64,000 bases of DNA from Vannielia litorea (GTDB taxonomy: Bacteria > Pseudomonadota > Alphaproteobacteria > Rhodobacterales > Rhodobacteraceae): contig NZ_QTNQ01000008.1 in the NCBI RefSeq assembly GCF_018424695.1, positions 1 to 64,000 of the forward strand, in the 5' to 3' direction. Below the pieces are notes generated by a model that saw only the letters and a program-made list of their open reading frames with translations, was not told the origin of the DNA and did no database searches. Every line of letters starts with the position of its first letter. Within the stretch, counting starts at the first letter, position 1. Below are positions 29,043-50,640 of the stretch, piece by piece. Position numbers and translations under genes: made by a program.

Positions 29043-29059
29043 CGGGTGACCTCGTTTCA

Positions 29060-31311: not shown

Positions 31312-31325
31312 CCGATCCAGAGACC

Positions 31326-31351
31326 GGGCCGCGCGCACACCTGCGCGGCCC
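31326..31351 (+). terminator. Intercistronic hairpin after binding protein 1
   Basis: GGGCCGCGC (31326-31334) pairs exactly with GCGCGGCCC (31343-31351) across an 8-base loop. There is no T-run. It lies 15 bp after the binding-protein stop and before the permease gene, so it likely stabilises the upstream mRNA segment or attenuates transcription. Confidence 0.5.
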
Positions 31352-31392
31352 GATGCATGCGGGACCCAGCTTGACGCGAGGACCTTGGGGCC

Positions 31393-32421: not shown

Positions 32422-32424
32422 GCC

Positions 32425-33453
32425 ATGCGGGATGCATTCGGAAACTTCCTCCGCCAGCCCGGTGCGGGAGCTGTTCTCAGCCTTGTCGGCATCCTGCTGT
32501 TTTTCGTGGTCTTCGGCGGGGTCGATCTTGTGGCCCTGATGGGCGCGGCCAGCTGGGTGAACTTCGCCGCCAATATGGGCATTGTGGCCATACCGGTGGG
32601 CCTCTTGATGATCGCTGGCGAGTTGGACATTTCCATCGGCGCGATGATCCCGGCGGGGTCGATGACCGTCGCCATCGTGTCGGGCCATTACGAGCTGCCG
32701 ATCATGTTTGGCATGATCGCAGCGCTGGGGCTTGGCGTGATTGTCGGCACCATCAACGGCATGCTGACAATCCGTACCACGGTGCCCTCGCTGATCATCA
32801 CGCTGGGCACGCTAGTGGCGATGCAGGGCATTGTCCTGACCGCCTCCAAGCTGCTGACCGGCGCGGCGAGCGTTGCCGTGACAGCGCCCAGCTGGGCCAA
32901 GTTCGCCTTCGGCAGCCTGCTGGGCGCGAGCCATCAGGTCATCATCATCTGGTGGATCATCACGGCGGTCGTGTTCTGGTTTGTCGTGCACAAGCAACGC
33001 TTTGGCAACTGGCTGTTCGCCATGGGCGGCGACCGTGACAGCGCGCGCAATGCCGGTATCCCGGTGGACCGTATGACCATCACGCTTTTCATCCTCTCCG
33101 CCACCGCCGCGACGTTCGTCGGCATGTGCCAGGCGATCCTCTTCAACTCCGCGCAGGTGTCAGGCGGCATGGGGATCATCTTCAACGTGATCGTTAGCGT
33201 CGTCGTCGGCGGCACGCTTCTGACCGGCGGCTTCGGGTCGGTGATCGGCATCTTTGTCGGCACGCTGACCTTCGCAGTGGTCAACCAGGGCATCTATTTC
33301 ACCGAGATCGACCGCAACTGGTCGAACCTGATCATTGGCGCAACGTTGCTGATTGCTGTCGCCATGAATGAAAGCTTCCGTTCGTTGGCACTCTCGATGG
33401 TCACACGAAAGAAGACCCCGGCCCCTGCGGTGCAAGCCGCTGCCCGGCCTTAA
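32425..33453 (+). CDS. ABC transporter permease (ribose/inositol type) 2
   Basis: A 342-residue permease of the same family and length as its upstream neighbour. PVGLLMIAGELDISIGAMIPAGS, MLTIRTTVPSLIITLGTLVAMQG and GGDRDSARNAGIPVDRMTI are the shared signatures. Two consecutive but non-identical permeases suggest a heterodimeric channel, since RbsC-type importers otherwise need two copies of one protein. It ends 47 bp before the second binding protein. Confidence 0.9.
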   Translation: MRDAFGNFLRQPGAGAVLSLVGILLFFVVFGGVDLVALMGAASWVNFAANMGIVAIPVGLLMIAGELDISIGAMIPAGSMTVAIVSGHYELPIMFGMIAALGLGVIVGTINGMLTIRTTVPSLIITLGTLVAMQGIVLTASKLLTGAASVAVTAPSWAKFAFGSLLGASHQVIIIWWIITAVVFWFVVHKQRFGNWLFAMGGDRDSARNAGIPVDRMTITLFILSATAATFVGMCQAILFNSAQVSGGMGIIFNVIVSVVVGGTLLTGGFGSVIGIFVGTLTFAVVNQGIYFTEIDRNWSNLIIGATLLIAVAMNESFRSLALSMVTRKKTPAPAVQAAARP

Positions 33454-33500
33454 CCAATGTCGAACCGTCGAGGAGACGGATTAATGAGGAGGAGACCGAC

Positions 33501-34454
33501 ATGAATTTGACCAAGACGCTGACAACCGCGGCCATCGCGGCACTGATGGCCACCGGCGCGGTGGCGCAGGATATCGCCGTGATCGCCGGTTCGGTCGAAG
33601 ATGCCTTCATGGACAAGATCAAGAAGGGCGTTGATGACGCGACCCACATGGTCGAGGCCAACGGCGGCACCGTGCAGTACCTACGCACCCAGAACTACGA
33701 GAACTTCGGCCCCGATCTTGTGACCCTGATCAATCAGGCTGTCGCACAGGGCGTCGACGGCATCGCCATCCCGGTCTGGGTGCCCGATGCGCAGATCCCC
33801 GCGCTTCAGGCCGCTGCCGAGCAGGGCATCAAGATCATGCAGTACAACTCCGGTCTGCCGGTGAAGGACGACATCAGCGCCATCAACTACTTCGGCTCCG
33901 ACGAGTACGAGGCGGGCTTTGGCGGCGGCAAGTATCTCGCCGAGCAGGGTGCCAAGCACATCCTCTGCCACATTCAGGTGCCCGGCGCGATCAACCTCGA
34001 AGAGCGCTGCAAGGGCGTGACCGATGGTGCCACCGAAGCCGGGGCCAAGGTGACCGTGCTCAGCACCCCCGCCAACCTCGATGGCGACGTGACCGGCACT
34101 GCCGAGGCGCTGAAGGCCGAGTTCATCGGTGACGACACCATCGATGCGATGGTCTCCTGCGCCGACTTCGGTGCCGCCGCAGGGGCGAACGCGGTGGAGC
34201 AGACCGGCCTCGACATCATGGTCTCGGCCTTCGACTTCTCGCCCGCCTCGCTGGAGCGCATCTCCGCCGGCACCCAGAAGATGGCCATCGACCAACAGCC
34301 CTACCTTCAGGGCTTCCTGGCCACCTCGATGCTCTTCGCCAACCTGAAGTTTGGCACCGAGATCTCTACCGATCCGGTCCTGACCGGTCCGGCGATCATC
34401 GACGCCTCCAACGTCGACGCGGTGAAGGCTGGCGCAGAACTGGGCGCCCGCTGA
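33501..34454 (+). CDS. Sugar/inositol ABC transporter substrate-binding protein 2
   Basis: A 317-residue periplasmic binding protein with signal peptide MNLTKTLTTAAIAALMATGA (cleavage near AVA|QDI). It is the same family as binding protein 1, with VEDAFMDKIKKGVDDATHMV, QAVAQGVDGIAIPVWVPDAQ and MAIDQQPYLQGFLATSML in equivalent places, but the ligand loops differ, so it likely binds another inositol derivative. The ribosome site is GAGGAGGAGACC. The gene has its own downstream hairpin and precedes permease 3 and the ATPase. Confidence 0.9.
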   Translation: MNLTKTLTTAAIAALMATGAVAQDIAVIAGSVEDAFMDKIKKGVDDATHMVEANGGTVQYLRTQNYENFGPDLVTLINQAVAQGVDGIAIPVWVPDAQIPALQAAAEQGIKIMQYNSGLPVKDDISAINYFGSDEYEAGFGGGKYLAEQGAKHILCHIQVPGAINLEERCKGVTDGATEAGAKVTVLSTPANLDGDVTGTAEALKAEFIGDDTIDAMVSCADFGAAAGANAVEQTGLDIMVSAFDFSPASLERISAGTQKMAIDQQPYLQGFLATSMLFANLKFGTEISTDPVLTGPAIIDASNVDAVKAGAELGAR

Positions 34455-34470
34455 TCTGACCCAACCCGCT

Positions 34471-34493
34471 CCCGGCCGATCGATCCGGCCGGG
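34471..34493 (+). terminator. Intercistronic hairpin after binding protein 2
   Basis: CCCGGCC (34471-34477) and GGCCGGG (34487-34493) form a GC-only stem 17 bp after the stop, without a T-tract. It sits in the same position relative to its gene as the hairpin after binding protein 1, which argues for a shared function in mRNA stability or expression ratio. Confidence 0.45.
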
Positions 34494-34556
34494 GGCAACA
34501 CTCACCCGCGCGGCAGCACCCGCGCCAGAGCAAGCCACCCTGGGGGAGCCATCAAA

Positions 34557-35660
34557 ATGGCGGACGCAACCAACACCGAAAGCAAGAGCACCGGGCCCGA
34601 CACAGCGTCGACGTCCGGCGGCGGCTTATCGCTTCTCAGCCTGTTCCGGCGCCCCGACGCGGGCGCGGCAGCGGGCTTCATCCTGATCTTCCTGTTCTTC
34701 GCCTGGTTCGGCTGGGACAAGAACTTCCTCACCCCGCTCGGCTCCTCGACCTGGCTCAACTTCGCCTCCAAGGTCGGCATCATCGCCATCCCGATCGGCT
34801 TCCTTATGATCGCAGGCGAGCTCGATATCTCCATCGGCGCGCTCATTCCCGCAGGCGGCATCGTGCTCGCCATGTCCACCGAGACCTTCGGGCTCAACAT
34901 CTGGCTCGGGGTGCTCATCAGCTTCGCCGTCGCCGGGGCCATCGGCTGGATGAACGGCATGCTGGTGACCCGCACCAACGTGCCCTCGCTCATCGTCACC
35001 CTGGCCACGCTCTTCGTGATCGCGGGTCTCAACGCCTACATCTCCAAACAGATCGCCGGCACCACCCAGCACAGCCTGCCCGATGCGGGCGTGGTCTCCG
35101 AGTTCCTGATGGGCGACTATCATACGCTGAAGATCGGCTCCGAAGACAGCGCCTTCACCATCTTCCAGAGCCTGCAAAGCTCCTTCTTCATCTGGATCGC
35201 GGTTGCTGTGGGCTGTTTCTTCGTGCTGCATGTCAGCCCGTGGGGGAACTGGATCTTTGCCATGGGTGGTGACCAGGAAGCCGCGCGCAATGCGGGTATC
35301 CCGACCAACCGCCTGAAGATCGCGCTGTTCATGCTGTCGGCCATGGCGGCTGCGCTTGTCGGCATGACCGAGGCTGTTCTGGCCAACACCGCCAGTACAA
35401 CGACGCAATTCGGCATGATCTTCAACACCATTATCTGTGTCGTCGTCGGCGGGGTTCTGTTGACCGGGGGCTTTGGCACGGTGACTGGCGTGGTCTTTGG
35501 CACGCTGACCTTTGGCATCGTGTTCCAGGGGATAAACTTCACTGCCTTCGACAAGGACCTGAATATGCTCTTCATCGGGGCGCTGCTGTTGGTGGCAGTT
35601 CTGATGAACGACACCTTCCGTAACCTGGCGACCAGCGCGTCGACCACCAAGAAAAAGTGA
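34557..35660 (+). CDS. ABC transporter permease (ribose/inositol type) 3
   Basis: A 367-residue RbsC-like permease, longer than the other two because of a polar N-terminal extension (residues 1-25, Ser/Thr/Asp-rich). IPIGFLMIAGELDISIGALIPAGG, MLVTRTNVPSLIVTLATLFVIAG and GGDQEAARNAGIPTNRLKI match the family. It lies between binding protein 2 and the single ATPase gene, 11 bp before the latter, so this trio looks like a complete importer by itself. Confidence 0.9.
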   Translation: MADATNTESKSTGPDTASTSGGGLSLLSLFRRPDAGAAAGFILIFLFFAWFGWDKNFLTPLGSSTWLNFASKVGIIAIPIGFLMIAGELDISIGALIPAGGIVLAMSTETFGLNIWLGVLISFAVAGAIGWMNGMLVTRTNVPSLIVTLATLFVIAGLNAYISKQIAGTTQHSLPDAGVVSEFLMGDYHTLKIGSEDSAFTIFQSLQSSFFIWIAVAVGCFFVLHVSPWGNWIFAMGGDQEAARNAGIPTNRLKIALFMLSAMAAALVGMTEAVLANTASTTTQFGMIFNTIICVVVGGVLLTGGFGTVTGVVFGTLTFGIVFQGINFTAFDKDLNMLFIGALLLVAVLMNDTFRNLATSASTTKKK

Positions 35661-35671
35661 GGGCTTGAACG

Positions 35672-36496
35672 ATGTCCGACAAAACCCCAGTTCTCGAAAT
35701 GCGCAAGGTCGACAAGAGCTTTGGCCCGATCGATGTGCTTCACGAAATCAGCCTGAAGGTCAACGAAGGCGAAGTGCTCTGCCTGCTCGGCGACAACGGT
35801 GCCGGCAAATCGACGCTGATCAAGACGATGTCCGGCGTGCACCAGCCCACCCGGGGCGAGATGCTGATGGATGGCAAGCCAGTCAGTTTCAATCGCCCAC
35901 GTGAAGCGCAGGATATGGGCATCGCGACGGTGCACCAGTTCGGCGGGACCTATCCGCTGATGTCCGTGGGGCGCAACTTCTTTGCCGGGAACGAGCCCAC
36001 CAAAGGTGTTGGCCCTTTCAAGGTCTTCGACCGCCAAAAGGCCAACCGCATCGCCGTGGATGAGGTCCAGAAGATGGGTATCACCCGCATCACCGATGGC
36101 GACCGTCTGGTCGGCGGCCTGTCGGGGGGCGAGCGTCAATCGCTGGCCATTGCCCGTGCTGTGTATTTCGGCGCACGCGTGCTGATCCTTGACGAACCGA
36201 CCGCTGCTTTGGGTGTGAAACAGGCCGCCCACGTTCTGCGCATCGTGAACGAGGCCAAGAGGCGCGGGTTGGCGGTGATCTTCATCACCCACCAGGTCAT
36301 GCACGCGATGGCCGTGGGCGACCACTTTGCGGTTCTGATACGTGGCGCCATCGCCGCCGACTTCCGCAAGGGCGAAAAGACCCGCGAAGAGATTGCCGAC
36401 CTGATGGCGGGCGGTGAATCCATGGCCGATCTCGAAGCGAATATCGAAGGCTACATGGAAACCCATGACGGCCACGTGCCGGAACCGGCGCATTGA
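35672..36496 (+). CDS. Sugar/inositol ABC transporter ATP-binding protein
   Basis: A 274-residue single-domain ATPase. Walker [10 protein letters not shown] spans residues 40-48, the signature [19 protein letters not shown] and Walker [13 protein letters not shown] are intact, with HQF for the Q-loop region and FITHQ for the switch His. Ribose-type ATPases are often two tandem domains (~500 residues); this one has a single domain, as in several Frc/Moc-type systems. It is the only ATPase for the two binding proteins and three permeases, so it may serve both importers. The last codons and stop are partly duplicated just downstream. Confidence 0.92.
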
Positions 36497-36651: not shown

Positions 36652-37653
36652 ATGACCCTTCGAATTGCCGTCATCGGCGCAGGCCTCATGGGCGCCGATC
36701 ATGCCCGTATCGTCGCCGAGGACCTGCCCGGCGCACACCTTCAGGTGGTTTGCGACATGGACGGCGCCCGCGCCAAATCCATCGCCGACCAATATGGCGC
36801 GGACTCTGCCACTGATCCCGAAGCGACCATCGCACGCAATGACGTTGACGCCGTGATTGTTGCATCTCCTGATTTCACACACGCGCCCCTGAGCCTTGCC
36901 TGTATCAAAGCAGGCAAGAAAGTGATGTGCGAAAAGCCCTTGTCGCAGTCCTCGCCCGAATGCCTAGAGGTGATGAAGGCCGAAGAGGCCGCAGGCGAGA
37001 AATTCATCATGCTGGGTTTCATGCGCCGCTATGACCCGGCCTACCTGCAGATGCGCGCCGCACTCAAGTCGGGAAAGATCGGCCGCGCGCTGATGCTGCA
37101 CAACTGGCACCGCAACGTCGCAACACCTGCCGCCGATTTCACTGGCGCCATGGCGATCACCAACTCTGCCCCGCATGAATTTGACGTCATGCGCTACCTG
37201 CTGGACACCGAGGTGACGTCCATTGCTGCATCGCAGCCGAAACGCTCTGACACGCTGGTGGCCCCCGTCGTCATGGTCTTGACGACTGCCGATGATCAGA
37301 TCGTCACCGTCGAGGTCAACAACAACGCCGCCTATGGCTATGACGTCAAGGCAGAGCTGGTGGGGGAGACCGGCACGATCTCGACCAACCATGTCAGCTA
37401 TACCCGCATGGATCAGGACGCCGCAAAGTCGCTGGGCCACGACCCCGACTGGCGCGACCGTTATGCCGAGGCTTATCGCCAACAGAACCGCGCCTTTGTG
37501 AACTGGGCGCAGGGCGGCGACTACCCCGAAATCGCTTCGTCGGCATGGGACGGCTACGCTGCTGCCGTGATCGCCGAGGCCGGTGCGCGGGCACTGGCCG
37601 ACGGCTCGCGCGAAGACATCACCCTCATCTCCAAGCCGGAGTTCTACCAATGA
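36652..37653 (+). CDS. Gfo/Idh/MocA family oxidoreductase 1 (MocA/IolG-like)
   Basis: A 333-residue NAD(P)-dependent dehydrogenase. The Rossmann start is IAVIGAGLMGADHARIV, the conserved lysine motif is CEKPLSQS near residue 94, and the FMRRYDPAY and NSAPHEFDVMRYLLDTE segments carry the substrate-site residues. In MocA and IolG this fold oxidises one ring hydroxyl of an inosamine or inositol. It overlaps the next gene (ATGA), a MocC-like isomerase, matching the mocA-mocC pairing known from rhizopine loci. It could oxidise the methylated or amino inositol before or after demethylation. Confidence 0.9.
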   Translation: MTLRIAVIGAGLMGADHARIVAEDLPGAHLQVVCDMDGARAKSIADQYGADSATDPEATIARNDVDAVIVASPDFTHAPLSLACIKAGKKVMCEKPLSQSSPECLEVMKAEEAAGEKFIMLGFMRRYDPAYLQMRAALKSGKIGRALMLHNWHRNVATPAADFTGAMAITNSAPHEFDVMRYLLDTEVTSIAASQPKRSDTLVAPVVMVLTTADDQIVTVEVNNNAAYGYDVKAELVGETGTISTNHVSYTRMDQDAAKSLGHDPDWRDRYAEAYRQQNRAFVNWAQGGDYPEIASSAWDGYAAAVIAEAGARALADGSREDITLISKPEFYQ

Positions 37654-38609
37654 AGCTGGGTTTCGTATCCGATAGCCTCGGTGGCATGTCCTTTGCCGAA
37701 ATGATGGACAACGCGCAGCGCATGGGCGTCAGCGGTATCGAGGTCAACACCTGTGGCTGGTCGACTGCCCCGCATTGCCGCATGGACGATCTGCTCGGCA
37801 ATGGGTCCGCTCAGAAGGCGTTCATGGACGAATTCGACCGACGAGGGCTGGAGATTATCTCCTTCAACGCCAACGGCAACCCGCTGCACCCGACCGATCC
37901 CAAGCAGGGCGAGGATCTGAAAAAGACCATTCGCCTGGCCGGTGAAATGGGCGTCAAGAAAGTCTGCACCATGTCGGGCCTGCCCGCAGGCTCGGCAAAT
38001 GACGTGATGCCGAACTGGGTTGTCAGCAGCTGGCCGCCGGAAACGCAGATCATGCTCAAATACCAGTGGGAAGAAAAGCTGATCCCGTTCTGGACCGAGA
38101 TCGTTGCGCTCTGCAAAGAGCACGGCGTCGAGCAGATCGCGCTTGAACTGCACGGCAACCAGTGCGTCTACAACGTGCCCTCACTGTTCAAACTACGCGA
38201 GGCTGTTGGCCCGGTGATTGGCGCGAACCTCGACCCAAGTCACCTGTTCTGGATGGGCGCCGATCCCCTGATCGCTGCCGAGGTACTGGGCGAAGCCGTG
38301 TATCACGTCCATGCCAAGGACACCTTCCTGAACGCACCCAAGCAGGCGACTACGTCTCTTCTGGAAAATGGCTCGCTCATGGATATCCCGGCGCGCTCGT
38401 GGTCCTACATCACGCTGGGCTTTGGCCATGGCGAGGAATGGTGGCGGCAGTTCTGCTATCGGCTCAAGATGGGCGGTTACGACGGCTGGCTGTCGATCGA
38501 ACACGAGGATGTGCTGCTGAACTCGCTCGAAGGCCTGGAGAAATCCGTGGACCTGCTGAAGGGCGTGATGCCGTCTGCCCCTGCCGATTTCAAACCGCAG
38601 GAGATCTGA
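37650..38609 (+). CDS. mocC: Sugar phosphate isomerase/epimerase family TIM-barrel protein (MocC-like)
   Basis: A 319-residue AP-endonuclease-2-fold TIM barrel (IolE/IolH/MocC superfamily). The start MKLGFVSDSLGG overlaps the preceding stop. Metal-site residues fall in IALELHGNQCVYN, GANLDPSHLFWMG, YHVHAKDT and LSIEHED. Similar proteins isomerise, epimerise or dehydrate keto-inositols. Position directly before the MocD-like oxygenase supports a MocC-type role, though the exact reaction of MocC itself is not established. The gene name is used by similarity in both sequence type and context. Confidence 0.8.
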   Translation: MKLGFVSDSLGGMSFAEMMDNAQRMGVSGIEVNTCGWSTAPHCRMDDLLGNGSAQKAFMDEFDRRGLEIISFNANGNPLHPTDPKQGEDLKKTIRLAGEMGVKKVCTMSGLPAGSANDVMPNWVVSSWPPETQIMLKYQWEEKLIPFWTEIVALCKEHGVEQIALELHGNQCVYNVPSLFKLREAVGPVIGANLDPSHLFWMGADPLIAAEVLGEAVYHVHAKDTFLNAPKQATTSLLENGSLMDIPARSWSYITLGFGHGEEWWRQFCYRLKMGGYDGWLSIEHEDVLLNSLEGLEKSVDLLKGVMPSAPADFKPQEI

Positions 38610-38613
38610 TCCC

Positions 38614-39675
38614 GTGCCCCGTGACTATGATCTTCTGGGACCGGATGCGCAAAGCGCCGTGGCCAAAGGTTTGGTCACGGAGGACTGGTATCGCACACCC
38701 ATCGACCGAAAGGTCATGAAAGCGCTGATGAAGCGGGCCGACCAGCCCGCGATCCGCGACACGGGTGTCCTTTTCGGGCTGATGGCGGTGTTCGCCGCCA
38801 CAGCCATTGCGCTGATGCCCAGCTGGTGGTCCGCGCCGTTCTGGCTGGCCTATGGCGTGCTCTATGGCTCGGCAATGGACAGCAGGTGGCATGAGTGCGG
38901 TCATGGGTCTGCCTTCAAGACCCGCTGGATGAACATGGTCGTCTACCAGGTCGCGTGCTTCTGCATGGTCCGCGATCCGTCCTGCTGGAAGTTCGGCCAT
39001 GCTCGGCACCATTCCGACACGGTCATCGTCGGCCGTGACCCCGAAGTGGCGATCATGCGGCCCGTCGACATGCTCAAGATGGCGGCGAATCTGGTGGGCA
39101 TTCTGGATGTGATCGACGGTGTGAAACGGATGATCCGGCACGCCGCAGGTCATATCCTGCCGGATGAGGCAGATTACGTGGCCGAGTCGTTCCACGCCAA
39201 GACCATCCGCACCGCGCGCATCTGGCTGGCGATTTACGCTGCAACCATCGCCGCCGCGCTGGTCTTTCAAAGCTGGATTCCCGTGCTGCTGATCGGTCTG
39301 CCGCGTCTGTATGGTTGCTGGCACATGGTGCTGTGCGGCTGGCTGCAGCATGGCGGGCTGGCCGACAACGTGTTGGATCACCGCATGAACAGCCGGACGG
39401 TCTATATGAACCCGGTCAGCCGCTTCATCTACTGGAACATGAACTACCACGTCGAACACCACATGTTCCCGCTCGTACCCTACTACAAGCTGCCCGAACT
39501 GCACGAGATCTGCCGCCACGACTTCCCGGCACCGAACACCTCTTTCCTGGATGGCTACGCTCAGATGCTGCCCGCGCTCTGGCGGCAGCGCAAAGACCCC
39601 GATTTCTACCTCCGGCGCCCGCTGCCGGAGACCGCAAACCCCTATCACGAAGGGCCGGCCGCAAAGGCCGCCTGA
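38614..39675 (+). CDS. mocD: Fatty acid desaturase-fold oxygenase (MocD-like)
   Basis: A 353-residue membrane di-iron enzyme starting with GTG. The three histidine boxes are HECGHG (93-98), HARHH (129-133) and HVEHH (279-283), with two pairs of membrane spans between (residues ~50-85 and 205-245). MocD of rhizobial rhizopine loci is this type and is needed, with MocE and MocF, only for the O-methylated rhizopine, so it is thought to remove the methyl group oxidatively. Here it is followed after 21 bp by the Rieske protein. Demethylation of a methyl-inositol or inosamine is the best reading. Confidence 0.85.
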   Translation: MPRDYDLLGPDAQSAVAKGLVTEDWYRTPIDRKVMKALMKRADQPAIRDTGVLFGLMAVFAATAIALMPSWWSAPFWLAYGVLYGSAMDSRWHECGHGSAFKTRWMNMVVYQVACFCMVRDPSCWKFGHARHHSDTVIVGRDPEVAIMRPVDMLKMAANLVGILDVIDGVKRMIRHAAGHILPDEADYVAESFHAKTIRTARIWLAIYAATIAAALVFQSWIPVLLIGLPRLYGCWHMVLCGWLQHGGLADNVLDHRMNSRTVYMNPVSRFIYWNMNYHVEHHMFPLVPYYKLPELHEICRHDFPAPNTSFLDGYAQMLPALWRQRKDPDFYLRRPLPETANPYHEGPAAKAA

Positions 39676-39696
39676 GACCACACGAGGAGACTTATC

Positions 39697-40008
39697 ATGG
39701 CAGAATGGGTAGACGCCTGCGCAACGGGTGATGTGGACGCCGAGGACGTGATCCGCTTCGATCACGGGGCGCGGACCTTCGTCATCATCCGCGATCACGA
39801 GGATAATTACTACTGCACCGATGGGTTGTGCACCCACGAGGATGTGCACCTCGAGGATGGTCTGGTGGTCGAGGCGACCATCGAATGCCCCAAGCATTCC
39901 TCGATCTTCGACTGCACATCCGGTGAGGTCGAAACGCCCCCGGCCTGCGAAAACCTGTGTACCTATCCTGTCAAAGTCGATGGCGGTCGGGTCTTCGTCG
40001 AAATCTGA
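39697..40008 (+). CDS. mocE: Rieske [2Fe-2S] ferredoxin (MocE-like)
   Basis: A 103-residue Rieske ferredoxin. The cluster ligands are CTH (Cys45, His47) and CPKH (Cys64, His67) in the spacing of oxygenase ferredoxins. No signal peptide or membrane anchor is present, so it is a soluble cytosolic carrier. It would pass electrons from the FAD reductase at 40877 to the di-iron oxygenase at 38614 and perhaps to the two fatty-acid-hydroxylase-like proteins. GAGGAGACTT precedes the ATG. Confidence 0.92.
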   Translation: MAEWVDACATGDVDAEDVIRFDHGARTFVIIRDHEDNYYCTDGLCTHEDVHLEDGLVVEATIECPKHSSIFDCTSGEVETPPACENLCTYPVKVDGGRVFVEI

Positions 40009-40018
40009 GCGATTGGCG

Positions 40019-40078
40019 CCCCGGGCCTGACCCTCGGCCTCCACGTCTGGCCAAGAGGTCGCGGGTCAAGCCCGGGAC
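40019..40078. repeat. Dispersed inverted-repeat element, copy 2
   Basis: CCCCGGGCCTGACCC on the left and GGGTCAAGCCCGGGAC on the right are imperfect reverse complements about 30 bp apart. The core matches copy 1 at 36530. It lies in the gap between the Rieske ferredoxin and the isomerase gene. Confidence 0.55.
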
Positions 40079-40100
40079 AGGTGTTACCAAGGATACCTCA

Positions 40101-40880
40101 ATGAGCTTTCAACTTGCCGCCTGCGCCGAAATGCTGTGGCGCGACAAACCCATCGAATGGCGGGCCTCACGCCTGAAAGAGATGGGGTTTGGCGTGGGTC
40201 TCTGGAACTGGCCGGATCACGATCTAGCCAAGCTGGAAGCCACGGGCGCCAATTTCACCATCATGAACGGCTACCTCGTCGGGCGTTTGTCCGATGCCGA
40301 GGGCGCGGAGGCGCTGTTGGCCAGCGCGCGAGAGACAGCACAGGTCGGCAAGCGGCTGGGTGTCGACCGGCTGAACCTGCATGGCACTGGATTGGGCGAT
40401 ATGGGTGTGCCGATCCCGCTGATCGGGTCCTTTGCACCCGGTTACGAACAGCGCGCCCGTGACACACTGCACCGCATCTGCGACATGGCCGAGACCGTGG
40501 GGGTGACTTTCACGTTGGAAAACCTCAACCCCATCGACCATCCCGGTTGCCCGTTTGGCTCGACCGCGGATGTGCTGGCCTTGGTCAGCGCGGTGGGCCG
40601 CCCGCAGCTGCGCATCAACCTCGACCTCTATCACACGCAGATCGGCGAAGGTGACCTGATCCGCTGGTGTCAGGCGTGCTTGCCGTGGATTGGCGAGGTG
40701 CAAGTCGCCGACAACCCCGGCCGGTGTGAGCCGGGCACGGGCGAAATCAACTATGCGGGCATCGCCAGTGCGCTGAGCGAAATGGGCTATAGCGGCCCCG
40801 TCGGTATGGAGGCCTTTGCGGCAGGCGATCCCGAGGCCGCGCTGGAGTCCTTCCGCACTGCATTCACGGTGTCGTCATGA
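40101..40880 (+). CDS. Hydroxypyruvate isomerase-like TIM-barrel protein
   Basis: A 259-residue protein of the AP-endonuclease-2-fold family, closest in layout to hydroxypyruvate isomerase: CAEMLWRDKPIEWRASRLKEMGF at the start, VTFTLENLNPIDHPG near residue 140, RINLDLYHTQIGEGDL near 173 and GEINYAGIASAL near 213. Metal ligands Glu, Asp and His are placed as in the family. The start ATG was chosen where homology begins. It may isomerise a ketose-like ring or a ring-opened intermediate. It overlaps the FAD reductase gene by 4 bp, splitting the mocE and mocF genes. Confidence 0.85.
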   Translation: MSFQLAACAEMLWRDKPIEWRASRLKEMGFGVGLWNWPDHDLAKLEATGANFTIMNGYLVGRLSDAEGAEALLASARETAQVGKRLGVDRLNLHGTGLGDMGVPIPLIGSFAPGYEQRARDTLHRICDMAETVGVTFTLENLNPIDHPGCPFGSTADVLALVSAVGRPQLRINLDLYHTQIGEGDLIRWCQACLPWIGEVQVADNPGRCEPGTGEINYAGIASALSEMGYSGPVGMEAFAAGDPEAALESFRTAFTVSS

Positions 40881-42058
40881 GCGGCATGGTCATAATCGGG
40901 GCAGGGGAGTGCGGCGTCCGGGCCGCGTTTGCCCTGCGAATGCAAGGCTATGCGGGCGAGATCACGCTGATTGGGGCGGAGGCGGCGTTGCCTTATGAAC
41001 GTCCGCCGCTGTCCAAATTCGGCGAGACCAAACCGATCTGCGCGGTTGAAGCCTATCAGGACAAGGCGATCACCTTGCGTCTTGGCGAACCTGTCCGCGG
41101 TATTGATCGGGCCACTCGGAGCGTTTCCCTGGCAGGGGGTGAGACGCTGGACTATGACTGCCTCCTTTTGGCCACCGGCGCGCGGGCACGGCTGTTTCCT
41201 GGGATGGACGGTTGCCTGACCCTGCGCACTGACAAGGACGCGCAGTCCATTCTGTCTCAACTGCACCGAGATGCCCGGATTGGCATCGTTGGTGGCGGTT
41301 TTATCGGGCTGGAGCTTGCCGCTCTGGCACGGTCAGCCGGAGCCGAGGTGACGGTTTTCGAAGCAGCCCCCCGACTCTTGGGTCGTGCTGTACCGCCCCA
41401 GATCGCACAGGTCCTGCAAGATCGGCACTTGGCTGAAGGCGTGTCCATGATGCTGGGCACGGGTGTGTCGTCTGCCAATGCAACCCGCATCGTCCTGGCT
41501 GACGGCAAGGTATTGGACTTCGACGCCGTGATTGCCGGTGTTGGGGCGCTGCCGAATACCGATCTCGCTGAAACCGCAGGATTGGATGTGCAGAACGGTA
41601 TCGTCGTTGACGGCGATTTCCGGACGTCGGACCCGCATGTCTTTGCCGCCGGGGATTGCTGCAATTTCGACTGGCGCGGCCAACGCGTCCGGCTGGAAAG
41701 CTGGAAGGCTGCGAAGGACCAGGGCGAACACGCTGCCAGTGCCATGTTGGGGCAGTCGGATGCCTATTCGAAAGGACCGTGGTTCTGGTCGGATCAATAC
41801 GATCTGGGGCTGCAGGTGACTGGGATCTTCGATCTGGCGGCGCCGATCCGCCATCGCAACACTGGCGGTGGCACAACGGTCGTTTTCCAAATTGATAGCG
41901 TGGGAACGCTCCGCGCCGCGGCAGGGATAGGGCCAATGAACACCACGTCGAAGGACATTCGCATCTTCGAAAAACTCATTGAACGGGGCACTGCCGTCGA
42001 TGCCGATGCGCTGGCCGATCCCGAACAGAACTTGAAGCGGCTGCTGAAAGCTGCCTGA
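40877..42058 (+). CDS. mocF: FAD-dependent ferredoxin reductase (MocF-like)
   Basis: A 393-residue oxidoreductase of the BphA4/putidaredoxin-reductase type. FAD binding at the N-terminus (VIIGAGECGVRAAFALR, then ALPYERPPLSK), the NADH motif IGIVGGGFIGLELAALARSAGA near residue 135, and the second FAD contact HVFAAGDCCNFDW near 254 followed by ESWKAAKDQGEHAA are intact. It would reduce the Rieske protein at 39697 with NADH. With mocD and mocE this completes a three-component oxygenase chain as in rhizopine loci. Confidence 0.9.
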   Translation: MSGMVIIGAGECGVRAAFALRMQGYAGEITLIGAEAALPYERPPLSKFGETKPICAVEAYQDKAITLRLGEPVRGIDRATRSVSLAGGETLDYDCLLLATGARARLFPGMDGCLTLRTDKDAQSILSQLHRDARIGIVGGGFIGLELAALARSAGAEVTVFEAAPRLLGRAVPPQIAQVLQDRHLAEGVSMMLGTGVSSANATRIVLADGKVLDFDAVIAGVGALPNTDLAETAGLDVQNGIVVDGDFRTSDPHVFAAGDCCNFDWRGQRVRLESWKAAKDQGEHAASAMLGQSDAYSKGPWFWSDQYDLGLQVTGIFDLAAPIRHRNTGGGTTVVFQIDSVGTLRAAAGIGPMNTTSKDIRIFEKLIERGTAVDADALADPEQNLKRLLKAA

Positions 42059-42077: not shown

Positions 42078-42896
42078 ATGTACCACAATCGTCCCCATGT
42101 CGAAGACATCCGCGCCATGAAGAAGCGCGGCGAGAAAATCTCGATGCTGTTTGTCACCACCCCCGAAGAAGCCGCCGCAGCCAACGCTGCTGGCATCCAC
42201 ATGCTGTCCATCGAGGGCAAGTTCTTTGACGCCGAAATGCGCGAAGCGGCGGGTGACTGCTTTGTGCAGGTCGGTCTGCCCTATGGCGGCTGGGGCCGGT
42301 TCGAGGGCCGCCCGATCGCCACCGGCGAGGACTACCTGCGCGCGGCGTTCCACTATGCGGGCATCGGCGGCGACGCCTATTACTGCTCGGCCAGCTATGA
42401 CATCCAGAAGCTGCTCTGCGACAACCATTTGCCCGTCGTCGGCCATATCGGCCTGATCCCGTCCTACATCACCTGGACCGGCTGGCGCGCCGTGGGCAAG
42501 ACCGCAGATGAGGCCGAGGCGCTGTGGAAACACACGCAGATGCTCGAAAAGATCGGTGTCTTCGGTGCCGAGCTCGAGGTCGTGCCGGATCGCGTCGCCA
42601 AGTTCCTGACCGAGAATTCCTCGCTCATCATGCTGGGTATGGGCGCGGGCAAATACGCCGACGCGCAGTATCTGTTTACCGAGGATGTCTGCGGCTACGG
42701 CAAGAACCACAAGCCGCGTCACGGCAAGGCCTATCGCAACTTCGCCCCCGAACTGGAGCGTCTGCAAAACGAACGCATCGCGGCCTTCAAGGAATTCAAG
42801 ACCGACGTGGACAATGGCGGTTATCCCGAAGCCGGGCATTCCGTCGCCATCAAGGATGACGAGTTCGACGCCTTCATCAGCAAGGTGCAAGGCTGA
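42078..42896 (+). CDS. Divergent 3-methyl-2-oxobutanoate hydroxymethyltransferase (PanB)-like protein
   Basis: A 272-residue protein alignable to PanB over its full length: HLPVVGHIGLIPSY near residue 117, FGAELEVVP with the conserved Glu near 156, and LGMGAGKYADAQYLFTEDVCG near 178 echo PanB VPVxGHIGLTP, LECVP and IGIGAG. The substrate and metal motifs differ: KLEGG is absent and VGDS is replaced by SIEG. True PanB transfers the C1 unit of methylene-THF to a keto acid for pantothenate. This copy sits in an inositol operon, so it may use or release a C1 unit, or act as an aldolase on a keto-inositol. The function is unproven. Confidence 0.75.
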   Translation: MYHNRPHVEDIRAMKKRGEKISMLFVTTPEEAAAANAAGIHMLSIEGKFFDAEMREAAGDCFVQVGLPYGGWGRFEGRPIATGEDYLRAAFHYAGIGGDAYYCSASYDIQKLLCDNHLPVVGHIGLIPSYITWTGWRAVGKTADEAEALWKHTQMLEKIGVFGAELEVVPDRVAKFLTENSSLIMLGMGAGKYADAQYLFTEDVCGYGKNHKPRHGKAYRNFAPELERLQNERIAAFKEFKTDVDNGGYPEAGHSVAIKDDEFDAFISKVQG

Positions 42897-43924
42897 TGCT
42901 CAGGATCGGGGTTGTCGGATACGGAACCGGGGGGCAGCACTTCCACACGCCGTTCATCGAGGCGGCGGAGGGCTGTGCGCTGGCGGGCATCGTCGCACGG
43001 GCCGAGGCCACCGTGGCCAAGGCACGTGCCGACTGGCCCGATACGCCGGTCTTTCCCAGCCTGACCGCGATGATCGAAGCGGGTGTCTGTGACGCGGTCA
43101 CCGTCACCACGCCTCCCCAGACCCGACGCGCTTTGGTGTTGGAGGCGATCGAGGCCGGCTTGCACGTGATCGCCGACAAACCCTTTGCCCCCGATTACGA
43201 GGGCGCGATGGAACTGGATGCGGCGGCCAAGGCCAAGGGCGTCACGCTGAGCGTGTTCCAGAACCGGCGTCTCGACGCGGATATCCAGACCTTGAAGAAG
43301 GTCATGGAGGAAGGTCGTCTGGGCCGGATCTGGCGCATTCACAATCGGATGGATTTCGACGATCCGGCGACGTTGGAACACGGCCCGGACGGTGGGCTGC
43401 TGCGCGATCTCGGCAGTCACCTTGTCGACCAGATGATCTATCTAAATGGCCCGGTTGCGCGGGTTTCGGGGCATCTGGATTTCATCAACCTGCCCGAGGG
43501 CCGCACGGACGCGTGCTTTTTCATCGTGATGTATCACGAAAATGGCCGTTTATCCGAGGTGTCGGCATCGAAACTCAACCGATACGACCTGCGCGAATTG
43601 CGGGCCTATGGAGACAAAGGTGCTTTTGTCAGCCATTCGACTGACATTCAGGCCCAGTCGATCTTCGCGGGTAAGCGTCCGATTGATGATCCCGAAGGAT
43701 GGGGTTTTGAGCCGCAATCCAACTGGGGCACGCTTTACACCGAGGAGGGCGCCGTACCGGTGCCGTCCGAACAAGGGCGCTATCACGATTATTACACCAC
43801 CTTCGCTTCTGCGGTGCGGGCCGGCACTTCGCCGCCCGTTACCGCCGAACAAGGTGCAAAGACGCTGGCTGTCCTCGACGCCGCGCGCAAGAGCGCGGCA
43901 GACGGTATCACGATAACACTCTGA
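42896..43924 (+). CDS. Gfo/Idh/MocA family oxidoreductase 2
   Basis: A 342-residue dehydrogenase starting on the last base of the PanB-like stop codon. The coenzyme loop is IGVVGYGTGGQHFHTPFIEAA, the lysine motif ADKPFAPDYEGAMEL, and QNRRLDAD and GGLLRDLGSHLVDQMIYLNG form the substrate side. The GTGGQHFHTPF start resembles the YdgJ/YvaA-like branch rather than IolG. It probably oxidises or reduces a different position or stereoisomer of the ring from the other two family members in the operon. Confidence 0.88.
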   Translation: MLRIGVVGYGTGGQHFHTPFIEAAEGCALAGIVARAEATVAKARADWPDTPVFPSLTAMIEAGVCDAVTVTTPPQTRRALVLEAIEAGLHVIADKPFAPDYEGAMELDAAAKAKGVTLSVFQNRRLDADIQTLKKVMEEGRLGRIWRIHNRMDFDDPATLEHGPDGGLLRDLGSHLVDQMIYLNGPVARVSGHLDFINLPEGRTDACFFIVMYHENGRLSEVSASKLNRYDLRELRAYGDKGAFVSHSTDIQAQSIFAGKRPIDDPEGWGFEPQSNWGTLYTEEGAVPVPSEQGRYHDYYTTFASAVRAGTSPPVTAEQGAKTLAVLDAARKSAADGITITL

Positions 43925-43960: not shown

Positions 43961-44956
43961 ATGCTCAAAGTCGGACTACTCGGCGCAGGCCGCATCGCCG
44001 GTGTTCACGCCACGGCGATTTCCTCTAACCCCGGCAGCACGCTGGTGGCGGTGTCGGATTATATCCCCGAAAACGCGGAAAAGCTCGCCGCGCAGTATGG
44101 CTGCGAGGCGCGCACAACGGATGAGATCATCGCTGACCCGTCGATTGACGCGGTGCTGATCGCCACGTCGACCGACACCCATTCCGACCTGATCGAGGCG
44201 GCCACCGCAGCGGGCAAGGCGGTGCTGTGCGAAAAGCCGGTCGACCTGTCGCTGGAGCGCGCGCGCGCCTGCCAGAAAGTCGCGGCCAAGAACGGCAAGC
44301 CAGTGATGATCGGCTTCAACCGGCGGTTCGACCCGAATTTCGGTGCGCTCAAGACCGCGTTGCAAGCCGGTGAAATCGGCAAGGCCGAGCTGTTGTCTAT
44401 CACTTCTTTCGACCCGGCCCCCCCGCCGGTCGCGTACATCAAAGTCTCTGGCGGCTTGTTCCGCGACATGATGATTCACGACTTCGACATGGCGAACTTC
44501 ATCATGGGTGAAGCACCCGTGACCGTAACCGCCGTTGGCACCTCGATTGTCGATCCGGAGATCGGCGCCGCGGGCGACGTGGATACCGCCGTGGTAACGC
44601 TGACCTATGCTGATGGCCGCATCGCAGTGATCAAGAACTCGCGCCGCGCGGTCTATGGCTATGACCAGCGCGTGGAACTGCTCGGATCCGAAGGGCTCTT
44701 GCAGGCACAGAATATGCTGGAAAACACCCTGGTCAAATCTACTAGCGCAGGCGTAACCGGGGCCAAACCAACCTACTTCTTCCTCGAACGCTACATGCCC
44801 GCCTACGCGGCGGAATGGGCGGCGTTTGTGGAGGCGATAAACAGCGGCAGCGCCTTCCCGGTGACGCTGGCCGATGGCGTCTCGGCACTTGCAATGGCCG
44901 AGGCCGCGACCTTGTCGGTGAAAACTGGGGCGCCGGTGGCGCTCTCTTCGATCTAA
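43961..44956 (+). CDS. iolG: Inositol 2-dehydrogenase (IolG)
   Basis: A 331-residue NAD-dependent dehydrogenase with the IolG pattern throughout: VGLLGAGRIAGVHATAI, CEKPVDLSLERA with the catalytic Lys near residue 91, GFNRRFDPNFGALK near 121, and GGLFRDMMIHDFDMANFIMG near 162 with the Asp/His pair. It makes scyllo-inosose (2-keto-myo-inositol), the first step of inositol breakdown and the substrate of IolE, encoded downstream. Of the three Gfo/Idh/MocA genes in the operon it is the best candidate for the canonical inositol step. Confidence 0.88.
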   Translation: MLKVGLLGAGRIAGVHATAISSNPGSTLVAVSDYIPENAEKLAAQYGCEARTTDEIIADPSIDAVLIATSTDTHSDLIEAATAAGKAVLCEKPVDLSLERARACQKVAAKNGKPVMIGFNRRFDPNFGALKTALQAGEIGKAELLSITSFDPAPPPVAYIKVSGGLFRDMMIHDFDMANFIMGEAPVTVTAVGTSIVDPEIGAAGDVDTAVVTLTYADGRIAVIKNSRRAVYGYDQRVELLGSEGLLQAQNMLENTLVKSTSAGVTGAKPTYFFLERYMPAYAAEWAAFVEAINSGSAFPVTLADGVSALAMAEAATLSVKTGAPVALSSI

Positions 44957-45007: not shown

Positions 45008-45892
45008 ATGACCAAATTCGCCCTTCGCGTTCAATGCCAAAGCCGTCGCGGGATCGTGGCGGCCGTCTCTGCCTATTTGGCAGAGCAGGGCTGCAATATC
45101 ACGGACAGTGCCCAATTCGACGATACGGAAACCGGCAACTTCTTCATGCGGGTCAGCTTCCAGTCCGAAGAGGGCAGGGGCTTGGACGACCTGTATGCTG
45201 GCTTCGCTGACATTCGGGCGCAATTCGGCATGGACGCCGAATTCTTCGACGAGGCAGTCAAACACAAGGTCGTGATCATGGTTTCGCGCTTTGGCCATTG
45301 TCTCAACGATCTGCTGTATCGCTGGCGGATCGGCGCTCTGCCGATCGACATCGTGGCGGTGATATCAAACCACATGGAGTATCAGAAAGTCGTGGTGAAC
45401 CACGACATTCCGTTCCACTGCATCAAGGTCACGAGGGAGAACAAGCCCGAGGCAGAAGCCCGGATCATGCAGGTCGTCGAAGACACGGGCGCAGAGCTGA
45501 TCGTTCTCGCCCGCTACATGCAGATCCTGTCTGACGAGATGTGTCGCAAGATGTCGGGGCGGATCATCAACATCCACCACTCCTTCCTGCCCAGCTTCAA
45601 GGGGGCCAACCCCTACAAGCAAGCCTTTGAACGAGGCGTCAAACTGATCGGGGCTACGTCGCACTACGTGACCGCTGATCTAGATGAAGGCCCGATTATC
45701 GAGCAGGACATCATTCGCGTGACGCATGCGCAGTCCCCCGATGATTATGTATCGCTGGGTCGCGACGTCGAGGCGCAGGTCTTTGCCCGCGCCATTCATG
45801 CCCAAATTCATGGCCGCGTCTTCCTAAACGGGAACAAGACCGTGGTCTTCCCGCCCAGCCCCGGCTCTTACGCGTCGGAGCGCATGGGCTGA
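45008..45892 (+). CDS. purU: Formyltetrahydrofolate deformylase
   Basis: A 294-residue PurU. Residues 1-85 are an ACT domain (FALRVQCQSRRGIVAAVSAYLAEQGCNI). The rest is a formyltransferase-fold hydrolase with INIHHSFLPSFKGANPYKQAFERG and GATSHYVTADLDEGPIIEQD carrying the catalytic Asn/His/Asp set. It hydrolyses 10-formyl-THF to formate and THF. Elsewhere PurU genes sit with THF-dependent demethylation pathways to regenerate free THF. Its presence inside an inositol operon fits a C1 unit being released from the substrate. Its stop overlaps an ATG upstream of iolC. Confidence 0.92.
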   Translation: MTKFALRVQCQSRRGIVAAVSAYLAEQGCNITDSAQFDDTETGNFFMRVSFQSEEGRGLDDLYAGFADIRAQFGMDAEFFDEAVKHKVVIMVSRFGHCLNDLLYRWRIGALPIDIVAVISNHMEYQKVVVNHDIPFHCIKVTRENKPEAEARIMQVVEDTGAELIVLARYMQILSDEMCRKMSGRIINIHHSFLPSFKGANPYKQAFERGVKLIGATSHYVTADLDEGPIIEQDIIRVTHAQSPDDYVSLGRDVEAQVFARAIHAQIHGRVFLNGNKTVVFPPSPGSYASERMG

Positions 45893-45909
45893 TGACAGAG
45901 GATAGCAAA

Positions 45910-47835
45910 ATGACCAAACCCTTGGACGTAATCACGATTGGCCGTGCGGGCGTAGACTTGTATGGCGCGCAGATTGGCGGGCGGCTCGAGGATATGGCGT
46001 CCTTCGACAAGTATATCGGTGGGTCTCCGACGAATATCGCCTGCGGCACCGCCCGCCTTGGCCTGAAGTCGGCGCTGATCTCGCGCGTGGGCAACGAGCA
46101 CATGGGGCGGTTCATCGTCGAGCAACTGGCGCGTGAGGGGGTTGAGACGAAAGGTGTTGTGACCGATCCGGAGCGGCTGACGGCCCTGGTGATCCTCGGC
46201 ATCCGCGATCAGGAACAATTCCCGCTGATCTTCTATCGCGAGAATTGCGCTGATATGGCGCTGTGCGAAGATGACATCGATCCCGAGTTCATCAAATCCG
46301 CGCGTTCCGTCGTGCCCACCGGCACCCACCTGAGCCACGAACGCACCCGCGCTGCGGTGCTCAAGGCGCTGACCATTGCGCGCGAGAACGGCGTCAAGAC
46401 CGCGCTCGACATCGACTATCGCCCGAACCTCTGGGGCATTCTGGGGCATGGCGACGGCGAGAGCCGCTTTGCCGAAAGCGCCGAGGTGACCGCGCAGTTG
46501 ATGAGCACGCTGCACCTGTTTGACCTGATCGTTGGCACCGAGGAAGAGTTCCACATCGCCGGGGGCTCGACGGATACCATCGCGGCGCTGCGCGCGGTGC
46601 GGGCCGTGTCAAACGCCACGCTGGTCTGCAAGCGCGGACCGATGGGGGCCGTGGCCTTCGAAGGCGATATCCCCGACAGCCTCGACGATGGCCAGACCGG
46701 ACCGGGCTTTCCGATCGAGGTGTTCAACGTCTTGGGCGCGGGCGATGGCTTCATGTCGGGCCTGCTCAAGGGCTGGCTGGATGGCGAGCCTTGGCCCACC
46801 GCGCTGAAATACGCCAACGCCTGCGGGGCCTTCGCGGTCAGTCGTCACGGCTGCACCCCGGCCTATCCGTCGTGGGAAGAGCTTCAGTTCTTCTTCGAGC
46901 GCGGCATCATCCAACCCGACCTGCGCAATGATGCAGAGTTGGAACAGGTCCATTGGGCGACGAACCGCCACACGCGCCCCGGCGCGCAGGCGGATGTTCT
47001 GCGGACCTTTGCCTTTGACCATCGCATGCAGCTGGAGGAAATGGACGGCTACTCCCTGGAAAAGGGTGGGGCCTTCAAAGAGTTGTGCCTTGAGGCCGCG
47101 CTGAAGGTTCAGAACGGTGAGACCGGGTATGGCATCCTGTGCGACAATCGCATCGGCCGCTCCGCGCTGCACCGCGCGTCCGGCTCTGGCCTGTGGATCG
47201 GTCGCCCGACCGAGGACCCCGGCTCGCGCCCAATCCAGTTCGAAAAGGACCTTGGCATCGACTTTGGCCGGTTCAAGGAATGGGCGGTTGAGGACGTGGT
47301 GAAACTGCTCGTTTTCTGTCACCCCGACGACGACGCCACGACCCGCGCCCTGCAAGAAGAACGCGTCTTGCGCCTGTTCACCGCCGCCCGTCGGGCCGGG
47401 CTGGAGGTCCTGCTCGAGGTGATCCCGTCCAAGGTCGGCCCGGTCGATGACACAACCACCGCGACGCTGATCCAGCAATTCTACGATGCGGGCGTCTATC
47501 CAGACTGGTGGAAGCTGGAGCCGTTCAAGACCGACGCGGCCTGGCAAAACGCCGTCAATGCCATCGAGCGCAACGATCCGCGCACCCGTGGCATCGTGGT
47601 GTTGGGGCTGGATGCGCCCGAGGCCGAACTGGCGGAAAGCTTTGCCATGGCCGCCAAGCAGCCACTGGTCAAAGGGTTTGCCGTGGGCCGGACAATCTTT
47701 GGCGACGCCGCCCGCGCATGGATGAAAGGCGACATGACCGACGCAGAGGCAGTTGCCCAGATGGCAGAGCGTTTCACTCGGCTGTGCAACGTCTGGGACA
47801 CGGCGCGCGCGGACGCACGCCTGAACGCCGCATGA
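45910..47835 (+). CDS. iolC: Bifunctional 5-dehydro-2-deoxygluconokinase / DUF2090 aldolase-like protein (IolC fusion)
   Basis: A 641-residue fusion. The first ~325 residues are a PfkB-family kinase (DVITIGRAGVDLYGAQIGG at the N-terminus, VLGAGDGFMSGLLKG with the catalytic Asp). The remainder is a DUF2090 TIM barrel (FAFDHRMQLEEM near 370; FAVGRTIFGDAARAWMKGDM near the end), thought to be the 2-deoxy-5-keto-gluconate-6-phosphate aldolase. One protein thus phosphorylates the ring-opened acid and probably splits it into dihydroxyacetone phosphate and malonate semialdehyde. The start MTKPLD has GAGGA upstream; an ATG at 45892 overlaps the purU stop. Confidence 0.9.
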   Translation: MTKPLDVITIGRAGVDLYGAQIGGRLEDMASFDKYIGGSPTNIACGTARLGLKSALISRVGNEHMGRFIVEQLAREGVETKGVVTDPERLTALVILGIRDQEQFPLIFYRENCADMALCEDDIDPEFIKSARSVVPTGTHLSHERTRAAVLKALTIARENGVKTALDIDYRPNLWGILGHGDGESRFAESAEVTAQLMSTLHLFDLIVGTEEEFHIAGGSTDTIAALRAVRAVSNATLVCKRGPMGAVAFEGDIPDSLDDGQTGPGFPIEVFNVLGAGDGFMSGLLKGWLDGEPWPTALKYANACGAFAVSRHGCTPAYPSWEELQFFFERGIIQPDLRNDAELEQVHWATNRHTRPGAQADVLRTFAFDHRMQLEEMDGYSLEKGGAFKELCLEAALKVQNGETGYGILCDNRIGRSALHRASGSGLWIGRPTEDPGSRPIQFEKDLGIDFGRFKEWAVEDVVKLLVFCHPDDDATTRALQEERVLRLFTAARRAGLEVLLEVIPSKVGPVDDTTTATLIQQFYDAGVYPDWWKLEPFKTDAAWQNAVNAIERNDPRTRGIVVLGLDAPEAELAESFAMAAKQPLVKGFAVGRTIFGDAARAWMKGDMTDAEAVAQMAERFTRLCNVWDTARADARLNAA

Positions 47836-47846
47836 AGGATACGATC

Positions 47847-49691: not shown

Positions 49692-49716
49692 CCGCCTCTT
49701 AGGAAAGTCGCCAAAA

Positions 49717-50622: not shown

Positions 50623-50640
50623 CACAGACAAGAGGCCCGG

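Follow-up and report, generated by a model that had tools for sequence, protein, structure and literature searches.

Three-component oxygenases of the MocDEF type have been described within rhizopine catabolism (PMC10107442, PMC5789663), where they need a downstream inositol pathway (PMC5789663). We analysed 64,000 nucleotides of Vannielia litorea (contig NZ_QTNQ01000008.1, positions 1-64,000; the window), which hold the same three component families as the rhizopine systems of Sinorhizobium meliloti L5-30 and Rhizobium leguminosarum, likewise together with an inositol pathway. With a probability of roughly 0.55 we read the MocDEF-type genes at 38614-42058 and their neighbours as a methyl-cyclitol demethylation module within an inositol operon, in which di-iron oxygenases would be exchangeable and the removed one-carbon (C1) unit would pass via tetrahydrofolate (THF) to formate.

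By the published descriptions the rhizopine loci differ from the window, which has a TIM-barrel gene (TIMb) between MocE and MocF, a gene for a PanB-like protein, PurU and a second oxygenase, FAH1. Its regulator belongs to the LacI family as opposed to MocR, and its match to the rhizopine binding protein is weak. Operons of the order LacI-MocD-MocE-MocF-PanB-like on S. meliloti pSymB (L043; loci are given as L numbers) and R. etli p42e (L044) share the oxygenase, ferredoxin, reductase and PanB-like families, but in them MocE and MocF are not separated by a TIM gene, and no inositol core lies within ~9 kb. FAH1-ABC-MocE-TIM-PanB-like-IolG operons of Sinorhizobium RAC02 (L047) and Gemmobacter (L048) have the transporter, MocE, TIMb, PanB-like protein and IolG in common with the window; a Neotabrizicola locus (L046), whose sequence starts at the binding protein, is of the same type. 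PurU and FolD are present in L046 and L047, yet all three lack MocD in the stretch compared. Finally, in the operons purU-mabO-folD of nicotine degradation (PMC3891541) and glyA-soxBDAG-purU of sarcosine degradation (PMC3691474) these genes handle the removed methyl carbon. As proposed for the window, PurU (and FolD) stands beside a demethylating enzyme, but those operons use amine oxidases, whereas the window has di-iron oxygenases and the PanB-like protein.

Gene content of the oxygenase region

The genes on which the argument rests are listed below; family calls were made with PF, TIGR and NF profiles against their cut-offs.

29217-30257, + strand: FAH1, FA_hydroxylase protein of the sterol desaturase type, the usual oxygenase in this operon type (PF04116 62.4 bits)
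37653-38609, + strand: TIMa, IolE-like TIM barrel (PF01261)
38614-39675, + strand: MocD, di-iron oxygenase, probable guest gene; 353 amino acids, GTG start (PF00487 118 bits, cut-off 29.7)
39697-40008, + strand: MocE, Rieske ferredoxin; 103 amino acids (TIGR02377 146.6 bits, cut-off 136.15)
40101-40880, + strand: TIMb, TIM-barrel isomerase/epimerase, probably metal-dependent; 259 amino acids (PF01261 104 bits, cut-off 31.1)
40877-42058, + strand: MocF, FAD/NADH ferredoxin reductase; 393 amino acids (PF07992 and PF14759; NF042949 HcaD 329 bits, cut-off 450)
42078-42896, + strand: PanB-like protein (PF02548 113 bits; TIGR00222 80.6 bits, cut-off 207.55)
45008-45892, + strand: PurU, 10-formyl-THF deformylase with the products formate and THF (TIGR00655 331.7 bits, cut-off 285.95)
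52782-53819, + strand: FAH2, second FA_hydroxylase protein (PF04116 67.1 bits)

Open reading frames and family matches place MocD, MocE, the TIM barrel and MocF at 38614-42058 in the order given in a preliminary description of this DNA. Its account of the individual components also held. MocD has three intact His boxes (HECGH, HARHH and HVEHH), and nine of its histidines (H93, H97, H129, H132, H133, H246, H279, H282 and H283) show no variation across 13 MocD rows. A search of the PDB with the MocD sequence at E 0.001 gave no match. The CxH and CxxH motifs of a Rieske protein are read in MocE as C-T-H and C-P-K-H, and the MocF sequence contains the GxGxxG motif twice. Among the 25 families listed for MocF none reached an equivalog cut-off. 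A His-box di-iron protein, a ferredoxin of the MocE family and an adjoining FAD/NADH reductase are thus all present, and both the family matches and the gene context support a complete MocD-MocE-MocF-type chain. O-methyl-inositol demethylation remains the most likely activity of this chain, as judged from its context.

The genes are tightly packed with intergenic gaps of 4 bp (TIMa-MocD), 21 bp (MocD-MocE), 92 bp (MocE-TIMb) and 19 bp (MocF-PanB-like), and TIMb overlaps MocF, as had been noticed before, by 4 bp. TIMb starts with the ATG at 40101; the listed open reading frame opens further upstream, at 39957.

MocD as the probable guest

The position of TIMb had led to the suggestion that a mocDEF operon received a TIM gene by insertion, and that the isomerase hence acts together with MocD oxygenation. 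This was examined in relatives of the window. Eleven PanB-like proteins were aligned, 80 loci were taken from named genomes and the window's proteins were mapped onto them. The loci are the best 80 of at least 436 finds of a pattern scan; close relatives are over-represented among them, and they cannot count as independent of each other. Upstream sequence was shorter than 3 kb in 8 and shorter than 9 kb in 17 of the 80 loci, which were excluded from the respective counts (n = 72 and n = 63). Identity thresholds of 60% for TIMb and 50% for MocD were our choice. Oxygenases were counted on the same strand only; MocD matches of L067, L095, L107, L116, L127 and L134 stand outside the tabulated counts because of opposite strand, identity below 50% or too short an upstream sequence.

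Besides the overlap with MocF, an insertion could draw on TIMb following MocE immediately in 50/80 loci, and on the joint presence of the TIM gene and MocD in L075 and the window, with L058 holding MocD and a TIM relic. However, the adjacency of MocE and TIM also occurs in the absence of MocD. The order MocE-TIMb-MocF without MocD was found in 4/80 loci (L055, L057, L070 and L073) and in Neotabrizicola L046. In L055 the full order is TIMa-MocE-TIMb-MocF-PanB-like, and its PanB-like protein is 96% identical to that of the window. The MocF homologue of this metagenome-assembled genome (L055, 8797-9979) matches as two parts adjoining at 9606/9608; the gene may be broken, or the sequence may contain an error. 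TIMa is followed by MocE at a distance of 12-137 bp with the place of MocD empty in 16/80 relatives, while MocD lies between the two in only two loci (L058 and L075) and the window. When 32 MocD rows were placed in a tree, those of the window, L058 (a long row) and L075 formed one clade with 100/100 support; the same tree leaves the joining of this clade to other MocDs without resolution.

MocD thus looks like the guest, because TIMa abuts MocE in these 16 relatives and the MocDs of the three operons form one clade. The simplest explanation is that a MocE-TIMb operon gained MocD once, with loss of MocD in the other loci as the alternative. TIMb is probably the older resident and MocD the newcomer. 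An inserted TIM gene that serves MocD was rejected as very improbable, since the place of MocD is so often empty and TIMb tracks FAH1, as follows.

Association and likely role of TIMb

Among the 63 loci whose upstream sequence reached 9 kb or more, 46 contained FAH1, and 39 of these 46 had TIMb within 4 kb, including L075, which also has MocD. By comparison, none of the seven MocD loci without FAH1 contained a TIM gene that reached the TIMb threshold (0/6 without L058). The difference between 39/46 and 0/7 corresponds to P = 2e-5 in Fisher's test, with loci that are related and non-independent. TIMb was further seen in 1/4 loci with FAH2 only and in 2/6 loci without FAH1, FAH2 and MocD (both among the 63). 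In L058 about 640 bp between MocE and PanB-like (9362-10001) contain the first 71 codons of TIMb (44%) and MocF-like scraps, the latter by our own reading of the translation; upstream, the sequence of this locus breaks off at the first binding protein. L058 probably represents the FAH1/TIMb type in a decayed state and is better set aside from the seven.

TIMb belongs to the AP_endonuc_2 TIM-barrel sugar isomerases/epimerases according to PF01261, its fold and a quartet of residues, E140, D175, Q201 and E237, which is invariant in 24/24 rows and which we take to be the metal ligands. Its predicted structure (mean predicted local distance difference test score, pLDDT, 81.4) was nearest to 3ngf (Z 25.9, root-mean-square deviation (rmsd) 2.4 over 240 residues) and 1k77 (Z 25.7), followed by ketose epimerases (Z ~24) and IolI (1i60, Z 22.5); the 50 matches listed spanned Z 22.5-25.9. 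The earlier label of a hydroxypyruvate isomerase-like protein is appropriate as a resemblance, but hydroxypyruvate isomerase as the identity was rejected with 118.3 bits on TIGR03234 versus a cut-off of 353.45. It is more likely that TIMb acts on the cyclitol skeleton as an isomerase/epimerase than that it takes part in oxygenation. In Bradyrhizobium L170 an annotated isomerase/epimerase is located between the Rieske and reductase genes, with a protein of the sterol desaturase family and a PanB-like gene alongside; in Paracoccus yeei L167 the isomerase/epimerase is located after the reductase.

A PanB-like gene in the neighbourhood of MocE

The gene at 42078 appears to be a better partner for the oxygenase chain than TIMb. 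In 65/72 loci MocE was found no more than 3 kb from PanB-like and on its strand, and any of MocE, MocD, TIMb, FAH1, FAH2 or MocF within 1.5 kb in 71/74. The pair of MocE and PanB-like is accompanied by FAH1, FAH2 or MocD, so that these neighbourhoods recur with the oxygenase as their variable part. PanB-like lies downstream of MocD-MocE(-MocF) in S. meliloti pSymB (L043), R. etli p42e (L044), Aestuarium (L045), R. sophoriradicis (L166) and Pararhizobium (L168). As a control, 30 genuine panB genes with flanks of ~1.5 kb per side were inspected; none (0/30) had a match to the window's other proteins or to FolD.

A survey of 120 genomes of the family, in which the PanB-like and MocE searches were taken as one draw because the listed handles agreed, detected PanB-like in 25 genomes and MocE in 30 (each at E 1e-20; 23 of the 30 exceed the MocE family cut-off). 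Both occurred in 21 genomes versus 6.3 expected (Fisher 9e-13, uncorrected for kinship). Of 43 MocE places and 43 PanB-like places, the latter counted with one fragment of a copy broken in two (G020:C20) omitted, 26 each were within 3 kb of the other gene. PanB-like and MocE are strongly though not strictly linked. In G020, a genome of the family (L035-L037, L040 and L042), four or five PanB-like places, of which one is broken by stops, occur together with several MocD relatives, as if this genome had diversified for many methylated sugars.

Fold and active site of the PanB-like protein

The predicted structure of the PanB-like protein (mean pLDDT 85.5) matched PanB 3vav with Z 24.9 (VIA; rmsd 2.7 over 211 residues, Foldseek 7e-17) and 1m3u with Z 24.3. 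The next superfamily members followed at 14.8, i.e. PanB proper was nearer by ~10 Z units. Like PanB, the protein retains the equivalents of His136 and Glu181 (E. coli PanB numbering; His123 and Glu167 in the window protein), which were kept in 92/92 PanB-like rows. On the other hand, Asp84 is replaced by Gly in 92/92 rows, and Lys112 and Glu114 are changed in 92/92; we take these three to be the magnesium and substrate residues of PanB. Lys112/Glu114 align to G95/G97 in one alignment and to Y102/S104 in the other, both unlike PanB, and the place of D45 was aligned unreliably. In the residue table 8/123 rows were excluded because of their length or of stops, and 23 rows were labelled true PanB; four of the latter (L145, L146, L149 and L150) look like wrong-strand extractions and cause two label changes in the tree.

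The PanB-like protein also differs from PanB in its gene neighbours and in the behaviour of an R. etli relative. An R. etli panB mutant was auxotrophic despite the p42e paralogue RHE_PE00443, which failed to complement when expressed from a plasmid (data not shown in PMC3082293); according to that paper the paralogue conserves 5/12 invariable active-site residues, and its authors detected no metal-binding domain. RHE_PE00443 should be the PanB-like gene of L044, which is the sole PF02548 match on p42e and of like size. The V. litorea genome contains a full-scoring PanB elsewhere (G000:C22, 349.7 bits). PanB as the identity of 42078-42896 was rejected on account of the score below the TIGR00222 cut-off, the lost magnesium and substrate residues and the other PanB in the genome. 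The modelled protein thus has a PanB fold, but probably not the PanB function.

Two other chemistries were considered for this protein. With the ICL/PEP-mutase fold it might be no C1 enzyme but a decarboxylase or lyase that acts on a ring-opened cyclitol, with PurU nearby by chance. Methylisocitrate lyases do share a related fold (Z 14.8), the metal residues are changed, and FolD/PurU were not seen in 67/80 loci. Yet PanB proper is much the nearer structure, and PanB-like is often paired with MocE and three kinds of oxygenases, even at loci that show no adjoining inositol core (L043, L044 and L170). Hence we regard a lyase as unlikely. Slightly less probable still is that the substrates are C-methyl cyclitols, from which the oxygenase would make a C-CH2OH group that PanB-like removes by a retro-aldol reaction to THF, i.e. 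PanB chemistry reversed. Algae contain C-methyl inositols, the oxygenases belong to desaturase/fatty-acid-hydroxylase families, and the fold with His123 and Glu167 would suit such a reaction. Against it, the magnesium/enolate residues of PanB are gone. Moreover, rhizobia meet O-methyl inositols such as pinitol (PMC5789663).

One-carbon genes and the proposed pathway

PurU and/or FolD were located near PanB-like in 13/80 loci when both strands were counted, 11 of them on the same strand and downstream. The order was FolD-PurU in L070, L087, L088 and L111 and PurU-FolD in L077, L083, L125 and L131. The Neotabrizicola operon L046 reads MocE-TIM-MocF-PanB-like-FolD-PurU-IolG, and in Sinorhizobium RAC02 (L047) both PurU and FolD scored above their NCBIfam cut-offs. 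In V. litorea FolD lies outside the run, as the single FolD gene of the genome (G000:C33).

In the proposed pathway electrons from NADH would pass via MocF and MocE to the di-iron oxygenase, judging from the protein families: to MocD and probably to FAH1 too, so that MocE would serve both. The oxygenase would hydroxylate the methyl group of an imported methylated cyclitol, and the resulting hemiacetal would split into the free cyclitol and a C1 unit at the formaldehyde level. The PanB-like protein may hand this unit to THF, and FolD (encoded elsewhere in the genome, in some relatives within the operon) and PurU would then turn it into formate. The cyclitol skeleton would be prepared for IolE-D-B-C by TIMb, TIMa and the IolG-type dehydrogenases.

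The demethylating oxidases of the nicotine and sarcosine operons pass the C1 unit to THF themselves. We know of no di-iron oxygenase that does so, and therefore a separate C1-transfer protein would help. Tentatively, PanB-like could be such a transferase, taking the (hydroxy)methyl unit from MocD, FAH1 or FAH2, all fed by MocE, straight to THF and avoiding free formaldehyde; MocE-MocF-PanB-like-FolD-PurU would then be a plug-in chassis for swapped oxygenases. Some PanB variants are said to condense formaldehyde with a keto acid (PMC7073904).

Several points weigh against demethylation with a folate-linked C1 route. PurU and FolD were seen in only those 13/80 loci, with flanks that reached 10 kb at most and were often shorter. 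In the 120 genomes 17/43 MocE places and 17/43 PanB-like places were without the other within 3 kb, and L167 and L169 have FAH2-MocE-MocF without PanB-like nearby. As the magnesium and substrate residues of PanB are lost, the chemistry of PanB-like is unreadable from its family. In E. coli, deletion of panB and ltaE left formaldehyde-dependent growth unchanged, which points to a spontaneous condensation with THF (PMC7073904). Furthermore, FAH1 and MocD may differ in substrates and electron donors, and the substrate, the release of formaldehyde and the binding of folate are all predicted.

The surrounding inositol run and the class of substrate

The MocDEF/TIMb set sits within a larger inositol run on the same strand (29217-53819). 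In addition to the genes listed above it comprises an importer, dehydrogenases and the inositol core, and it is preceded by a divergent regulator.

28014-29060, - strand: LacI-family regulator, divergent from the run (PF00356, PF13407)
30343-36496, + strand: ABC importer with rhizopine-type binding proteins (30343, 33501), permeases (31393, 32425, 34557) and ATPase (35672) (PF13407, PF02653, PF00005)
36652-37653, + strand: IolGa, IolG-like dehydrogenase (NF052679 268 bits, cut-off 540)
42896-43924, + strand: Gfo/Idh/MocA dehydrogenase (PF01408)
43961-44956, + strand: IolG, inositol 2-dehydrogenase (TIGR04380 426 bits, cut-off 355)
45892-52620, + strand: inositol core with IolC-DUF2090 (45892), IolD (47838), IolE (49717), a PhyH-family protein (50641-51801) and IolB (51814)

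The inositol core scored above the cut-offs of NF047869, TIGR04377, TIGR04379 and TIGR04378; the PhyH-family protein was assigned by PF05721. Its gene between IolE and IolB has a counterpart at the same position in L132 (Salipiger sp., 63% identity). The PhyH family is of the Fe/2-oxoglutarate type, and the protein could be an additional oxygenase for modified inositols. FA_hydroxylase proteins mark both ends of the run, which together with MocD and PhyH makes four possible oxygenases. The importer region has two binding proteins and three permeases for a single ATPase, as if one motor served two importers.

The context suggests O-methyl inositols or a rhizopine-like compound as the class of substrate. 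Rhizopine proper (3-O-methyl-scyllo-inosamine), and with it a plant-nodule trait, would fit the MocD/E/F-type genes and the Gfo/Idh/MocA dehydrogenases, and the best NCBIfam match of both binding proteins is the rhizopine binding protein NF052284. Their scores of 155.8 and 126.6 bits, however, fall far below the cut-off of 420, and no aminotransferase or MocR-type match was found among the genes of the run that were scanned. Moreover, many relatives of the locus are from Rhodobacter-type bacteria, which are mostly not nodule symbionts. Rhizopine itself is an unlikely candidate, slightly less probable than the C-methyl cyclitols discussed above.

Significance

In the public annotation of L043-L046, L048, L166, L168 and L170 the PanB-like protein is named PanB (3-methyl-2-oxobutanoate hydroxymethyltransferase), in some cases with a pantothenate Gene Ontology term. 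The R. etli result contradicts this product name for one member. A link of PanB-like genes to MocE or demethylation was not found in literature titles and abstract openings, a source with thin coverage of subscription journals. PanB-like is probably mislabelled as a vitamin enzyme and probably belongs to the proposed demethylation gene set.

In place of a vague 'rhizopine-like' oxygenase there is now a pathway for methylated cyclitols that can be tested. One such cyclitol, pinitol, is reported to have had the highest concentration of all components in one root exudate (PMC5789663). Many of the rhizobia and Rhodobacter-type bacteria analysed contain members of a probably mislabelled family of PanB paralogues, whose likely job is the handling of the removed methyl carbon. 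The data suggest that oxygenases are exchanged on a fixed chassis for electrons and carbon.

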